Virus record (IMG/VR): IMGVR_UViG_3300009151_000492
Coordinates: 1 to 20,939 of that record
DNA length: 20,939 bases
Strand: one strand, 5' to 3'
DNA from: a virus
Both the position numbers and the translations under genes were made by a program. Numbering within the stretch: the stretch's first letter is position 1; the number at the start of each line of letters is the position of its first letter. The notes beneath the pieces are model-generated. The model saw only the letters and a program-made list of their open reading frames with translations. It had not been told where the DNA came from and did no database searches. Shown here in pieces: positions 5,686-12,439 of the stretch.

Positions 5686-6237
5686 TTATTTTACCGTTTC
5701 AGAAACAAGTTTACAAATCATAATAAAATATGTTTGATCATATTTATTTTTCATATGATTTACGTGTTTATGTACCCATTGTATATTATCTTTAAAGTAG
5801 CCTTTTGTACTATCAATTCTGTCTAATGATGAAGTTCTTTCAAATCCTCCAGAAGATTTTCGATTGCCATGAAATGTTAGATCCATTCCTGTCAAAGCAC
5901 ATTTGCGATTTTGAGATAAAAATAATTCCCATAAGTAATTAAAATCAACATCAGAGTCTGCAAATCCTAATTTTTTATTACGCTTTGTCAAATACTCTGG
6001 CCAATTGCCTCTAATATCTTCAAATCCAGCAAATGACGGATTATCTTTACCCATACGACGATTACCACATTCTGTACATTTTCGTTTTTCTAAAACATAC
6101 CATATATCCATAACTCGCGGACTACTTCCACATTTGCATTGAACTGTAACTAATCGATCTTTAATTTTTAATATCGTATTCGTACCTACTACGTCTCCAA
6201 TATTAATATCATATTTTGTCTGGCCTTTTCTTCCCAT
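5686..6237 (-). CDS. HNH endonuclease, probably free-standing homing type
   Basis: At 183 residues the protein has a putative zinc ribbon near 34-58 (CKCG, later CTECG) and an HNH core near 113-165: CALTGMDLTF, then SLDRIDSTKGYFKDNIQWV and a helix VNHMKNKY. The LDRID..KGY..DNIQWV pattern is typical of phage-encoded HNH proteins that behave as homing endonucleases. It sits between the ribonucleotide reductase gene and the DUF5522-like gene. A stable hairpin lies eight bases before its ATG; in T4, homing endonuclease genes often have structured leaders limiting their translation (established knowledge). Its target is not visible. Adjacent reductase or the split helicase would be plausible homing sites. 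Confidence 0.85.
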   Translation of the reverse strand: MGRKGQTKYDINIGDVVGTNTILKIKDRLVTVQCKCGSSPRVMDIWYVLEKRKCTECGNRRMGKDNPSFAGFEDIRGNWPEYLTKRNKKLGFADSDVDFNYLWELFLSQNRKCALTGMDLTFHGNRKSSGGFERTSSLDRIDSTKGYFKDNIQWVHKHVNHMKNKYDQTYFIMICKLVSETVK

Positions 6238-8176: not shown

Positions 8177-9340
8177 CTAACCTAAAGAATCGCTAGATAT
8201 TTCTTTATATTTCTGAGACAAAGATTTTCGCAATAGCGATTCTCCATTTTCCATATCTTTTTTCGTGTCTTTTCCTTGAACTGACGTTTCTTCATAGATG
8301 TGAATTTGTCCATTAGACATATTCATTTTAGCTGGAAGAGTTAATCCATCAGGGCCAAAACGATTTTTAATAATATGCCATCTACCTGTACCTGCTATTT
8401 TATCTGTAACTTTTCTAGACAATGATAATACAAAGTCAGCAATCATTACCTTAGAATAAGACTCTGAAATTTTATCTGCTTCAATAACATCTTGCTCTAA
8501 TGCACTTCTATTTGCCTGTGATGCTGTAAACATAGGCACTTCATATTCTCCTGCTATTCCACGCAAATCTTCATAAATAGATTCTAACTCATGACGCATT
8601 TCTTTTCTAGATACAGCCCCTCTTAACAAATCAGCATAATCGACAATAACTAAATCTGGTTTTTTACCTAACATAATCATTTTTTCAATATGAGCTCTAA
8701 TTGTCGAGCATGAAGCTGTTTTAGTAGGATAATATTTAATTGTTAAATTTCCTTTTAATTTAGATACTACATTTGCAACTTCATCTAAATGATATTTTAA
8801 ATTTTGATTTGCAATTCCAGTTAATACAGCATCATATCGCCGACCTACATATCCTTCATTTAGCTCTAAAGTATAATGAAGAACGTTTAATCCATGTTTA
8901 ACTGCATGAGCTCCTACATTTATCAATCCCCATGAGTTATGTGACAATATACCATTAGAATAATAACAATGAACTTCTTCTACTGCAACATCATATAAAA
9001 CTTCATCTTTTACATATCTAACTTCTTTTAAATAAGTTACGCCATTTTCCGTTTCAATAATATCATTTCGAGTGATATCAACTACATGTTTCCATCCACT
9101 TTGTGTCATAAATCGATGGTTTGGAGAACATTTTACAGTTACGTTATTGCCAAAATAACAAGTTACTGATTGCTGCAATTCAGTTCGAAATAATTCATTA
9201 ATACGTTTAAACCCATATGGTGTTTTTATATTAATATCATACGTCGGAAAATGATTAGCTAACGCTTCGTCAGCAATTCCGATAGCGTCGAACAAGTCTT
9301 TAATTTGAACTTCTTCTGTAATAGTACGCTTATACGTCAT
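8177..9340 (-). CDS. C-terminal half of split-intein replicative helicase (IntC plus gp41/DnaB C-extein)
   Basis: Residues 1-135 are the C-part of an intein and 136-387 the helicase C-extein. The intein part has block B (VKCSPNHRFMT near 69-79), block F (LYDVAVEEVHCYYSNG near 115-130) and block G ending SHN135, followed by Ser136, the usual +1 nucleophile. The extein starts SWGLINVGA, completing the P-loop of the N-half. It carries TLELNE (catalytic Glu 159), Walker B PDLVIVDYADLL (D234), SQANRS and KNRFGPDG, all as in gp41/DnaB-type 5'-3' helicases. Joined to the N-half, the mature helicase would be about 455 residues, near T4 gp41 (475). An in-frame TAA lies directly before the ATG, so this is a separate start. 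TAG stop. Without splicing neither half has a complete ATPase. Confidence 0.88.
   Translation of the reverse strand: MTYKRTITEEVQIKDLFDAIGIADEALANHFPTYDINIKTPYGFKRINELFRTELQQSVTCYFGNNVTVKCSPNHRFMTQSGWKHVVDITRNDIIETENGVTYLKEVRYVKDEVLYDVAVEEVHCYYSNGILSHNSWGLINVGAHAVKHGLNVLHYTLELNEGYVGRRYDAVLTGIANQNLKYHLDEVANVVSKLKGNLTIKYYPTKTASCSTIRAHIEKMIMLGKKPDLVIVDYADLLRGAVSRKEMRHELESIYEDLRGIAGEYEVPMFTASQANRSALEQDVIEADKISESYSKVMIADFVLSLSRKVTDKIAGTGRWHIIKNRFGPDGLTLPAKMNMSNGQIHIYEETSVQGKDTKKDMENGESLLRKSLSQKYKEISSDSLG
8936..9340 (-). other. Split intein C-fragment (IntC, 135 residues)
   Basis: Encodes intein blocks B, F and G with terminal His-Asn. It is much longer than the 35-40 residue C-fragments of canonical split inteins such as Npu DnaE or gp41-1. 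It begins before a YDINIKTPYGFKRINELF segment, so the break lies between blocks A and B, as in atypical inteins like AceL-TerL. Confidence 0.82.
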
Positions 9341-9378
9341 TTAAAAATTTTTTAATTTGTTCTAATACTAATAATTTA

Positions 9379-10161
9379 TTATGCCTGATTCAATAAAGAT
9401 TCCACTTCCCAACCATACAATTCAAAACCAGCTCCAATTTGGAATTTTTGCCATGGCTTAATCCATATAATAATTTCGTTACCTGATATTCCTTTGACAG
9501 GTATTCCAATTTCTTCATATTGAATTTCAATTTTTGTTTTTGGCCCTATACATTTACCAATACCTGCCGGGGCTACGAATACTACTAACTCTCCTTTACC
9601 AAAACCTCCGTCTGCTAAATCATTAATAACTGGCCATGGAGTTGAAATTGTACTTCTGACATTTGCAGAATAACGAGCTTCAACATTTACAGCTTCATTA
9701 TATTCATGACCAATTTCTTTGTCAGCTCCTGCTTTCATTGCAGCATCAATTGTAGCTTTAATTTCTTCATATCGACCTTTATTTAATAAATTTACAGAAT
9801 CTAAAATTGCTCGCTTAATACATTGGTTTTTACAAAAAGCTACAGTTTCAGTTTTAACAAATTCTAAATCTTCTGCTTCAATATACTTAAATACATCTTT
9901 TAAACATTCAATGATAGATATTTTTAATACGTCTCGATCGATTTCTTGAACTTTAATTTTAAAAACATCTAATGTCGGAGATACTTTATATTCTTTAAAG
10001 TATTTATTTATTGTCTCGACAATCCATTGATTAGATTCTGATTCAAAAAAATCTGGTAATAAAATATCAGTAACTTGCTGCAAAAATGACTTATCAGTCA
10101 ACAATGAAGATATTACTTTTATTTGAAACCCATAACCAAAATTTGTTAATTTATCTGACAT
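9379..10161 (-). CDS. N-terminal half of split-intein replicative helicase (gp41/DnaB N-extein plus IntN)
   Basis: Residues 1-203 are the N-terminal domain and start of the RecA core of a gp41/DnaB-type helicase; residues 204-260 are an intein N-fragment. The start NFGYGFQIKVISSLLTDKSF and the following helices match the phage helicase N-terminal domain. GGFGKGELVVFVAPAGIGK (residues 185-203) is the approach to Walker A and breaks after Lys203. Cys204 then begins CIGPKTKIEIQ, intein block A. The C-half resumes with SW, restoring the P-loop AGIGKS. The last 40 residues (WIKPWQKFQIGAGFEL and on) match no intein block I know. The frame ends in tandem stops TAATAA. A TATATTTA promoter-like box lies four bases before the ATG. 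Function after splicing: 5'-3' replicative unwinding ahead of the leading-strand polymerase. Confidence 0.86.
   Translation of the reverse strand: MSDKLTNFGYGFQIKVISSLLTDKSFLQQVTDILLPDFFESESNQWIVETINKYFKEYKVSPTLDVFKIKVQEIDRDVLKISIIECLKDVFKYIEAEDLEFVKTETVAFCKNQCIKRAILDSVNLLNKGRYEEIKATIDAAMKAGADKEIGHEYNEAVNVEARYSANVRSTISTPWPVINDLADGGFGKGELVVFVAPAGIGKCIGPKTKIEIQYEEIGIPVKGISGNEIIIWIKPWQKFQIGAGFELYGWEVESLLNQA
9382..9552 (-). other. Split intein N-fragment (IntN, 57 residues)
   Basis: Starts at Cys204 of the N-half gene within the Walker A motif and contains only block A. Canonical split-intein N-fragments are around 90-110 residues and include block B, which here lies on the C-fragment. The distal part is rich in Trp and Ile and may be a remnant of the broken region. 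Confidence 0.78.
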
Positions 10162-10202: not shown

Positions 10203-11261
10203 TTATTTTTTAAATGCAGTTAATGAATTAAAACTGTTTGCTAACCACGTGTCTACAGCAGGAATTGCAGTGTATGCTTTATCAATCATGAACATTTTTT
10301 TAAAATTATATGCATCTAATTTTGGAACGTCTCTTTCTGCTATATCAGCTATTAACAATTTAATATTAGATGAAATATCTAAATTTTCCAATGACATTAA
10401 CGACCAATTAAGACGCATAGTCGCTTCATTTTCTAATACAGTCTTGTATATTTTATGTTCATCTTTTTTAGCGTTGCAATATTCAAACAGTTCATCTAGC
10501 GAAATTTGATTGGCTTCTAACAATATTGGAAATTTAGATTGCATTGTTTTAATTCCAATACCATTAATTCCTTTAATGTTATCTGAGGCATCTCCCATAA
10601 ATACTTTATAATGTATAAAGTTATGTGACGGAATTCCAAATTTTTCAGCAACCTCTCTAGGAGTGTAAAATTTCTTTTCTACAGGTCTCCATACAGAAGT
10701 TTTTTCATCAATTAATTGGATAAAATCTTTATCATCAGACATAATAATTACTTCACTTTTTTTAGGTCTGAAAATTTCTGTTGTTAAATAAGCAATAGTA
10801 TCATCAGCTTCAATATTATCAATTGAAATTAATGTTATTGGCAAACATTGTAAATATTCTGATAATTTACCCATTTGCAATCGCATAGAAGCAATTTCTT
10901 CTTCTGTTGTAAGTTCTCCAACATCATTTCGTCTATTAAATCTTGTAGACATTGATCTTCCTTCTTTATATCCAGAATGCATTTTTTTTCTTCTAGCAGA
11001 TCCGCCTTTACCATCAAAAGTAATAATTACTCTAGTAGGTTTAAATTGTCTAATTACAGCAGCTATAGATCTTAAAAAACCCATGTAACCTCCAATATGC
11101 TCTCCATCGTCATTGACTAATGGAACTGCTGAAAATACTCGAATAAATGAATTTAGTCAAAGGCCGTCGACTATCAAAACTTTAGAATTTTGATTTAAGT
11201 CGACGGCATTTTGATTTTCTTGTGAAAGCTGACGCAGTAAGTCAGCGTAATGTTTAAGCAT
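10203..11261 (-). CDS. FEN-family 5'-3' nuclease/RNase H with in-frame TGA (candidate recoded gene)
   Basis: The full reading frame runs from ATG at 11261 to TAA at 10203 (352 codons) and is interrupted only by TGA at 11159-11157. Before it lies a 34-residue N-terminus ending SKVLIVDGL; after it LNSFIRVFSAVPLVNDDGEHIGG. VDGLN(T/S)FIR is the first active-site motif of this family. Downstream are VIITFDGKGGSARR, EADDTIAYL, MSDDKDFIQL, GDASDNIKGINGIGIKT (helix-3-turn-helix), all intact. The family removes RNA primers and flaps at the replication fork. A hairpin abuts the stop and the context is CTT TGA CTA. Initiation at the internal ATG at 11084 would give 293 residues lacking the first catalytic Asp. 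That ATG follows GGAGG by four bases, but the bases also encode the conserved IGGYMG. Recoding, nonsense mutation and sequence error are all possible; conservation on both sides argues the gene is or was recently functional. Confidence 0.82.
11157..11159 (-). other. In-frame TGA within the 5' nuclease gene, context CTT TGA CTA
   Basis: On the minus strand the codons are GAC GGC CTT TGA CTA AAT TCA. Both flanking codons are Leu. Moving peptidyl-tRNA-Leu from CTT to CTA would skip the stop and give DGL-NSFIR, which fits the family without an insertion. TGA followed by C is a slow termination signal. Confidence 0.9.
11163..11207 (-). promoter_or_regulatory. Two-part hairpin directly upstream of the in-frame TGA
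   Basis: On the minus strand GCCGTCGACT (11207-11198) pairs perfectly with AGTCGACGGC (11172-11163). Inside it ATCAAAA pairs with TTTTGAT around an 8-base loop, with a 3-base TAA bulge. The stem ends exactly at the base before the CTT codon. The arms contain two GTCGAC palindromes and are strikingly GC-rich for this genome. Confidence 0.75.
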
Positions 11262-11275
11262 AACTAATTAAGTGA

Positions 11276-12439
11276 TTACGATTCTTCGCCATCAAATTCA
11301 GTGTCAATTTGAATATCATCAATACCAAAATCATCACCGGCTCTGTAATTAAGAATATATTTTTCGCAAATTGTTTTGTAAACTTGCTCTTTCATTTCAA
11401 TATCATCAATTAATTTAGATTTAAAATCTTTAGATTGAAATTTAACTGATTCTCCAGTGTCAGTGTTAATGTATGTATACCAAGCTCCTGCTTGAGTCAC
11501 TAAATTATAATTTTTTAACATTGTTAACCAACTACCATAATCATCAATTCCAGAATCAAAATAAATATCATAATCTACAGTACGCAAAGGCGGGCCCATA
11601 CGATTTTTAATTACTTGAGCTCGGGTAGTAATACCTACAATAGCCTCAGGCTTGTCTGCAGATTTTGCTAATTTAATTTGTCCTACTGATTTTAATCTAA
11701 GACGAACTGAAGAGTGGAAAGCGATTGCTTTTCCTCCTGAAGTTGTCCATTGGTCTCCAAATGTGACGCCCAGTCTAGTACGCAACTGATTTGTAAATAT
11801 TAAACAAATTCGCTCTCTGCCAACAAAATTAGTAATTTTACGCATTGCTTTTGATAAAATAATTGCTTTTGAAGTTGCCCAACCATCTTTATCATAATCA
11901 GCTGACATTTCTTGTTTAGTAGAAGCTCCTGCAACAGAATCTACTACTATAGTTACTATTCTTGATTTTGAAGCTTTTCTTACAGATTCTACAATTGTAT
12001 CCATTGCTTCAAAAATATCTTCAATAGTTTCTAAAGGAATGTATAACATATCTTTTAAATCAACTCCGATAGCTTCTAAAAATTCTCTAGAAATTGCATT
12101 TTCAGTGTCAATATACACTGCTAATCCGCCTTTTCGTTGAGTATCAGCTAAAGCGTGTGCCGCTAATAAAGATTTACCAGAAGCTTCTAACCCGGTAATT
12201 TCAATAATTCTTCCAACTGGAAGTCCTCCATTAGGTCGATTTGAAATTGCTAAATCTAACATTGTCGAGCCGGTGGAAATCCATTCACTAACTTCAGACG
12301 GCGCGTCGGTGTCTCCTTCTAAAAAATAAGCTACTTTGTAATTGGAACTTTTAAATTTTTTATTAAGATTATCTGCTAGCACTGAAGCTAAATTGTCTTG
12401 CACTTCACCTTCATGAACTGCTAATTTACTTTTTGCCAT
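11276..12439 (-). CDS. uvsX: UvsX/RecA-family recombinase
   Basis: This 387-residue ATP-dependent strand-exchange protein has Walker A GLEASGKS (residues 83-90), the catalytic Glu in YIDTENA (E113), Walker B IVTIVVDSVAG (D167) and the DNA-binding loop region LIFTNQLRTRLGVTFGDQWTTSGGKAIAFHSSVRLRL (about 213-249, described as NQLR...GGKA). The acidic C-terminus (DDIQIDTEFDGEES) is typical of RecA-like proteins and may regulate DNA binding. Length is near T4 UvsX (391) and E. coli RecA (353). It follows the gp32-like SSB by 14 bases and precedes the 5' nuclease by 14, giving a recombination-dependent replication cassette. It appears intact; whether closer to RecA or UvsX cannot be settled by eye. 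Confidence 0.93.
   Translation of the reverse strand: MAKSKLAVHEGEVQDNLASVLADNLNKKFKSSNYKVAYFLEGDTDAPSEVSEWISTGSTMLDLAISNRPNGGLPVGRIIEITGLEASGKSLLAAHALADTQRKGGLAVYIDTENAISREFLEAIGVDLKDMLYIPLETIEDIFEAMDTIVESVRKASKSRIVTIVVDSVAGASTKQEMSADYDKDGWATSKAIILSKAMRKITNFVGRERICLIFTNQLRTRLGVTFGDQWTTSGGKAIAFHSSVRLRLKSVGQIKLAKSADKPEAIVGITTRAQVIKNRMGPPLRTVDYDIYFDSGIDDYGSWLTMLKNYNLVTQAGAWYTYINTDTGESVKFQSKDFKSKLIDDIEMKEQVYKTICEKYILNYRAGDDFGIDDIQIDTEFDGEES

Follow-up and report, generated by a model that had tools for sequence, protein, structure and literature searches.

The interrupted FEN-family gene

The window, that is, the whole stretch of viral DNA analysed here (20 939 nucleotides; IMG/VR record IMGVR_UViG_3300009151_000492), carries a gene for a 5'-3' exonuclease of the FEN family next to a uvsX gene. 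The latter is the conserved left neighbour of the FEN gene both in loci with the interruption described below (hop loci) and in uninterrupted ones (plain loci). The features of the locus are the following.

10203–11261, minus strand: FEN-family 5'-3' exonuclease gene, for which a +6 hop is predicted to give VDGL^NSFIR and a product of 350 amino acids
11154–11156, minus strand: putative landing codon CTA (Leu); the next decoded codon is AAT (Asn)
11157–11159, minus strand: in-frame stop TGA
11160–11162, minus strand: putative take-off codon CTT (Leu)
11163–11207, minus strand: mRNA hairpin abutting the take-off codon, with arms 11198–11207 and 11163–11172 and an inner stem 11188–11194 and 11173–11179
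11166–11168, minus strand: codon of the Asp in VDG, located before the stop and identified as the first conserved Asp of the active site by aligning solved enzymes of the FEN family, Taq among them
11154–11270, minus strand: exchanged cassette segment, in comparison with L003 and L002, made up of the 5' coding end of FEN, the hairpin and the stop, with no endonuclease part here
11276–12439, minus strand: uvsX (RecA-like; Pfam RecA, 188.5 bits), the left flank of the cassette site

The FEN gene starts with the ATG at 11261–11259, and the frame from there to 10203 holds a single in-frame stop, the TGA at 11159–11157. The sequence-only reading had reported a TGA between CTT and CTA in the FEN motif, and this is confirmed: the window encodes VLIVDGL-LNSFIR around the stop, the catalytic motif being split by CTT TGA CTA. 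The Asp of VDG, presumably catalytic here as in the FEN family generally, is encoded before the stop, so that a functional FEN needs continuity across it. As that reading had proposed, a hop from CTT to CTA would give exactly the family motif. Against the Pfam domain 5_3_exonuc_N, the hop product scores 115.6 bits, the read-through product 109.2 and the ORF beginning at an internal ATG 91.2, and VLIVDGLNSFIRVF of the hop product aligns without gaps to VLLVDGHHLAYRTF of Taq polymerase.

The internal ATG (11084–11082) would allow another solution, in which the stop ends a short leader peptide and FEN is produced by internal initiation. This codon is ATA or TTT in hop relatives, and internal initiation is thus not the conserved solution. 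Its product would also be deprived of the first active-site Asp, as had been pointed out from the sequence, and we regard this explanation as very unlikely.

The strong hairpin noticed earlier is equally present. It combines a perfect basal stem of 10 bp (GCCGTCGACT/AGTCGACGGC) with an inner stem of 7 bp, its last base lying immediately before CTT. The folding energy of the 143-nt region is −40.6 kcal/mol, compared with −20.8 ± 3.2 kcal/mol for shuffled sequences (z = −6.2; none of 200 shuffles as good). RNAfold additionally pairs an upstream UCAAA with UUUGA in the window, which places the stop itself at the foot of the stem.

Conservation of the stop, the flanking codons and the hairpin

A homologue search yielded 80 FEN loci, of which nearly all those inspected encode VDGLNSF without an insert. 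Two relatives with N-termini almost identical to that of the window share the interruption: L046 (76% identity; CTT TGA CTG) and L050 (58% identity; CTT TAA CTG). By DNA pattern scans and the open sampling of homologues, the arrangement DGL-stop-LN was found in 85 IMG/VR contigs from many independent metagenomes, grouped into 40 FEN clusters at 85% protein identity. False positives of the pattern (L093, L110 (TGG), L103, L119, L388, the L396 type and L422/L427) were excluded. A mechanical scan of loci L001–L432 and the window for two codons of the same box separated by a stop, with both frames open and an abutting hairpin, found 32 distinct sites in FEN and a single site elsewhere. Since the same layout recurs in 85 contigs, the association of stop and hairpin is far beyond chance.

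All three stop codons are used in the 40 hop clusters (TAG 19, TGA 11 and TAA 10), and they interchange within lineages: TGA in the window and TAA in L050, TGA in L084 and TAG in L089, TAA in L098 and TGA in L111. A sense codon at this position in relatives, which the sequence-only reading would have taken as a sign of mutation or error, occurs in none of the 16 two-codon inserts among openly sampled homologues; all 16 hold a stop, and about 296 homologues have no insert.

The identity of the flanking codons is strongly constrained. The take-off codon is CTT in 35 hop clusters, CTG in three and CTC in two, and never TTA or TTG, while only five of 85 plain clusters use CTT at this Leu. At the landing position, CTC is found in 15 clusters, CTT in 11, CTG in seven, CTA in six and TTC in one; counted by distinct loci, 61 of 63 have CTN there, the exceptions (TTC in L415 and GTA in L421) being single contigs. 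Plain homologues, by cluster, encode this Leu by CTN and by TTA/TTG in a ratio of 40 : 36, and 81% of the Leu codons in the window are TTR. The preference for CTN is highly significant at both positions (Fisher's test, p about 4e-7 for take-off and about 9e-7 for landing), as is that for CTT at take-off (p about 3e-14), and the rule holds too among matches of a pattern permitting any NTN codon. In all, 39 of the 40 FEN hop clusters present a take-off codon, a stop and a landing codon for the same tRNA.

The hairpin is conserved as well. A stem of at least 6 bp is present at the site in all 39 testable hop clusters compared with 10 of 85 plain clusters. Where enough upstream sequence was available, in 61 distinct copies, the longest stem measures 6–18 bp; no nucleotide separates its 3' arm from the take-off codon in 56 of them, 1 nt does so in four and 3 nt in one. 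Since the 3' arm encodes the conserved V/I-D-G, variation is free at the third codon positions of that arm, and the 5' arm covaries with these positions. Pair 4 is GC in 26 clusters and AT in 13 and is never broken, pair 7 is GC in 11, AT in 21, CG in three and GT in two with two breaks, and pair 1 is paired in 36 of 39; the 5' arm was located by complementarity, which makes the paired share partly a matter of construction, but not the long stems, which most plain relatives lack, or the variety of pair types. Two plain FEN clusters, L205 (13 bp) and L051 (10 bp), retain a long stem with neither stop nor insert; these stems are possibly relics of lost cassettes.

In all eight clusters whose hairpin starts 36 nt before the take-off codon (L084, L088, L100, L115, L363, L364, L379 and L394; the −36 clade), the sequence GGAG lies 3 nt before the hairpin and comes to lie about 3 nt from CUU once the hairpin has folded. 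A Shine–Dalgarno-like element is spaced 3 nt from the shift site in RF2 +1 frameshifting (PMC5009743), and in T4 genes 38 and 25 a hairpin brings a Shine–Dalgarno sequence close (PMC3014915). GGAG at this spacing is missing from most other lineages, including the window, which makes such an element auxiliary at most.

The sequence-only reading had retained a plain alternative, namely a nonsense mutation or an assembly error in the window contig, to which a decayed pseudogene may be added. The 6-nt insert is indeed missing from most FEN homologues. However, the stop, the matched Leu codons and the hairpin are all conserved across the 40 clusters; with recurrence in 85 contigs, three interchangeable stops, covarying stems, downstream FEN frames intact over about 300 codons and the sharp cassette borders described below, this alternative is refuted, and we give it practically no weight.

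Read-through agrees with part of the data. Here, a near-cognate tRNA would decode the leaky stop-C with the help of the hairpin, producing VDGL-X-LNSF. A stop followed by C is a poor termination context, and C follows the stop in nearly all copies; moreover, the 3-nt gap is in frame, and frame alone allows two added residues in the 3-nt class. Yet read-through does not explain why CTN stands on both sides, which follows if the tRNA can re-pair after the stop, or why sense codons are missing from the insert altogether. The additional residues would also fall inside the catalytic motif, with the loss in Pfam score given above. The conservation of all three elements, the use of three stops and the covarying stems disfavour read-through, which we consider unlikely, and selenocysteine decoding alike.

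More generally, a suppressor tRNA, a reassigned stop or decoding as selenocysteine or pyrrolysine could be suspected from the observation that none of the 21 long window genes checked ends in TGA. Against this, the three stop codons are interchangeable at the site and the other long genes of the window are open under table 11; no tRNA gene was found in the window, nor any Rfam element at the locus (E ≤ 1). The probability of such a recoding appears very low.

A mobile endonuclease cassette and a second target gene

Comparison of hop and plain loci reveals an exchanged segment. Against L003, a plain phage, and L002, the window shows about 80–96% DNA identity in uvsX and the greater part of FEN; in the roughly 120 nt upstream of the motif this falls to 51–53%. 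The hop phages L118 and L086 are 86–90% identical in this stretch of about 120 nt and mostly 50–75% identical in FEN. L082 and L051 are 93% identical up to the end of uvsX and again from 30 nt before the take-off codon; between these borders, 1.17 kb replaces 50 bp, and L118/L125 and L364/L291 behave likewise. Thus, sharp borders of presence and absence separate otherwise colinear genomes, which differ by about 1.0–1.2 kb between uvsX and FEN.

The block is ordered as an endonuclease gene followed by the start of FEN, the hairpin and the stop. The cassette gene codes for about 310–335 amino acids, with NUMOD3 motifs and a Vsr-like nuclease end, which we take to be EDxHD-like, or else for an HNH/NUMOD3 homing endonuclease; the HNH-type gene belongs to a PHROG annotated as 'homing endonuclease'. 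An adjacent endonuclease is found in 18 of 37 hop clusters versus one of 83 plain clusters (Fisher's test, p = 2.5e-10), and many hop loci, the window included, have none adjacent. The single plain FEN cluster next to an endonuclease of this family is L342. On the FEN tree, a quick tree with some long branches, the hop trait requires at least 20 changes, 15 of them forced by well-supported branches. On these comparisons, the putative hop element belongs to a mobile homing-endonuclease cassette.

The intron-like behaviour of the cassette in DNA and the hairpin abutting the site could also be reconciled with a loss of the 6 nt at the RNA level, by splicing, editing or polymerase slippage. However, the locus shows no intron-like RNA (no Rfam element at E ≤ 1) and no homopolymer on which slippage could occur, and its flanking codons match by tRNA recognition (CTN with a free third base) rather than as identical DNA. 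We therefore hold this process to be highly improbable.

A second gene carries comparable sites. A search with the endonuclease and a mechanical scan for hairpins that abut a codon-stop-codon site led to a glycosyltransferase gene (PHROG 7162) next to, and downstream of, an endonuclease of the same family, with a hairpin and GGN-stop-GGN inside SDRTGVG^KFRS (loci L469, L476, L477, L479, L467, L470–L474, L481–L483, L487 and L506). Most of its hop sites are GGN-stop-GGN, for example SDRTGV-GGT-TAA-GGT-KFRS or GGC-TGA-GGT. The hairpin folds at about −28 to −31 kcal/mol, compared with −2 to −7 kcal/mol in plain relatives (SDRTGVGKFRS), which have neither stop nor hairpin. Some glycosyltransferase loci with the endonuclease have no stop.

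Other gap lengths also occur. Related sites read AGC-TGACTA-AGC (6 nt), AGC-TGAA-AGC (4 nt) and GGC-TGAATTTAAA-GGA (10 nt), and one FEN site reads CTT-TGAAGAAG-CTG (8 nt) (loci L489/L491/L511, L492, L493 and L453). In these four, the exact motif is rejoined only by skipping, and three of the four gaps are not multiples of three; read-through cannot join the matched codons across gaps of 4, 8 and 10 nt. In FEN sites with shifts of +5 or +7 (L436–L452 and L459), the landing codon is G followed by bases 2 and 3 of the take-off codon, giving the take-off/landing pairs CTG/GTG, TTG/GTG, ACT/GCT and CTC/GTC. This partial match counts against the hop reading, as do the two non-matching landing codons, the hop loci that lack an endonuclease and the glycosyltransferase loci that have one but no stop.

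A tighter form of the pattern had no match in 257 Gb of prokaryotic genomes (GTDB). Searches by tblastn of 50 697 phage records with several FEN lineages and the glycosyltransferase retrieved distant FEN homologues only and no glycosyltransferase match. The three nearest records comprise two with an annotated CDS free of interruption and an unannotated one in which the FEN gene was read as plain. No isolate carrying the element was found among the phage-record matches, the distant ones partly inspected; the carriers found are all uncultured.

Comparison with known systems and proposed mechanism

Given the conservation, covariation, codon matching, cassette borders, endonuclease association and second target gene, we infer that the stop is very probably bypassed by programmed +6 hopping of peptidyl-tRNA-Leu, encoded on a mobile endonuclease cassette. 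While the P site holds CUU and the A site the stop, the peptidyl-tRNA-Leu would release CUU, the mRNA would slide by 6 nt and the tRNA would re-pair with the CUN codon right after the stop. Asn would be read next, giving a product with the exact motif VDGL-NSFIR. The hairpin 5' of the take-off codon probably zips while leaving the mRNA exit channel, drawing the mRNA 5'-ward and supplying the forward push; a zippering motor of this kind is the published model for the 5' stem-loop of T4 gene 60 (PMC5009743). In the −36 clade, the GGAG placed 3 nt before the folded hairpin may help, as in the RF2 gene.

The homing endonuclease probably cleaves FEN genes that lack the cassette at this conserved position. 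In genes bearing the cassette, the 6-nt insert and the recoded sequence around it probably confer resistance to cutting, while hopping would preserve the nuclease function of the interrupted FEN. By analogy with T4, for which the same has been proposed, shielding of the gene that bears the cassette against the cassette's own endonuclease is the likeliest role; regulation of FEN dosage is possible.

The nearest known system is the bypassing in T4 gene 60. There too, a stop directly follows the take-off codon and the landing codon matches it (PMC3014915, PMC5009743), stem-loops in the mRNA surround the take-off site, the 5' one being the proposed motor, and a phage gene for DNA metabolism lies beside a homing endonuclease insertion (mobA/60.1), for which protection from cutting was suggested. 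T4 gene 60 skips 50 nt with a shift of frame, whereas the FEN element skips 3 nt (+6) in frame and its cousins 2–10 nt. The T4 system uses Gly and a specific nascent peptide, the FEN element Leu. The parallel drawn in the sequence-only reading stands for codon matching and mRNA structure (39 of 39 testable clusters, with covariation). No such parallel emerges for the nascent peptide: in sequence comparison, FEN hop N-termini vary from lineage to lineage and may be as short as about 19 codons, although a lineage-specific peptide effect is possible. A nascent peptide as a general requirement was rejected on the same grounds, and our claim is accordingly one of class, the FEN element working like T4 gene 60 without being identical to it. 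T4 gene 60 has been described as apparently unique among T4-like phages (PMC3014915), whereas the element described here occurs in no fewer than 40 clusters of FEN and also in another gene. The best reading of these comparisons is that the element would be T4 gene 60-like in kind and new in anatomy, target and breadth.

The synthetic +6 'stop hops' of Weiss et al. (1987), in the account of them given in PMC5009743, likewise have matched codons flanking a stop, and 9 nt give one amino acid, two residues fewer than read-through. Those were laboratory constructs, whereas the FEN sites are natural; of natural hopping over in-frame stops, a review of 2016 states that 'no occurences are known' (PMC5009743). 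No report of hops in FEN or glycosyltransferase genes was found in the openly licensed papers searched.

With RF2 (prfB), the FEN element shares the CUU-stop-C core, identical to CUUUGAC, and, in the −36 clade, a Shine–Dalgarno-like element restored by folding to 3 nt from the shift site. It differs in using all three stops, and no release-factor gene is involved. An RF2-type +1 frameshift was rejected: the +1 reading of CTT TGA CTA AAT meets TAA at once, as the +1 frame also stops immediately in L046 and L050, and the FEN frame resumes at +6. In yeast mitochondria of Magnusiomyces, short inserts in mitochondrial genes are also removed by ribosome bypassing, apparently independently of mRNA context (PMC5009743), whereas the FEN element has a conserved hairpin and a codon rule.

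Efficient bypassing in bacteria and phages has so far rested largely on T4 gene 60. The FEN element would provide dozens of natural variants in codons, stops, gap lengths and hairpins, with or without a Shine–Dalgarno-like stimulator, and thereby open forward ribosome sliding to comparative tests. That a homing endonuclease and a bypass element occur together suggests a general strategy rather than an oddity of T4; ribosomes very probably jump the stop in the FEN genes of many uncultured phages, and the jump site is passed between phages along with a selfish gene for DNA cutting, as in T4 but over a far wider range and with a much simpler build. It is likely that short-gap bypass elements ('translational introns'), composed of a hairpin, a take-off codon, a stop, 0–7 further nucleotides and a matched landing codon, are widespread and have been moved between phages by homing endonucleases into conserved motifs of at least two unrelated genes, hopping being, beside RNA and protein splicing, a recurrent third way for selfish DNA to lie hidden in genes. 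In the annotation of viral metagenomes, hop-bearing genes will appear as broken.

Split inteins in fractured genes, together with the associated homing endonucleases, were reportedly described by Dassa et al. in 2009. Such fractured genes are mended after translation, whereas FEN would be mended during it. A DnaB-type helicase gene resembling a split-intein gene occupies 8177–10161 of the window in two ORFs with a split-intein-like break (PAGIGKC... / ...NGILSHNS), and its C-terminal half matches the Pfam intein splicing and DnaB_C domains. A 183-aa ORF at 5686–6237, which adjoins a ribonucleotide reductase gene, looks by eye like an HNH endonuclease and has no Pfam match at E ≤ 0.001. Upstream of FEN in L046, L076 and L385, uvsX has a split-intein-like C-terminal piece, preceded in L046 and L076 by a Vsr-like endonuclease ORF; in L046, this endonuclease beside the split intein is a relative of that of the cassette. 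In these two phages, neighbouring genes would thus host a protein-splicing and a ribosome-hopping insertion.
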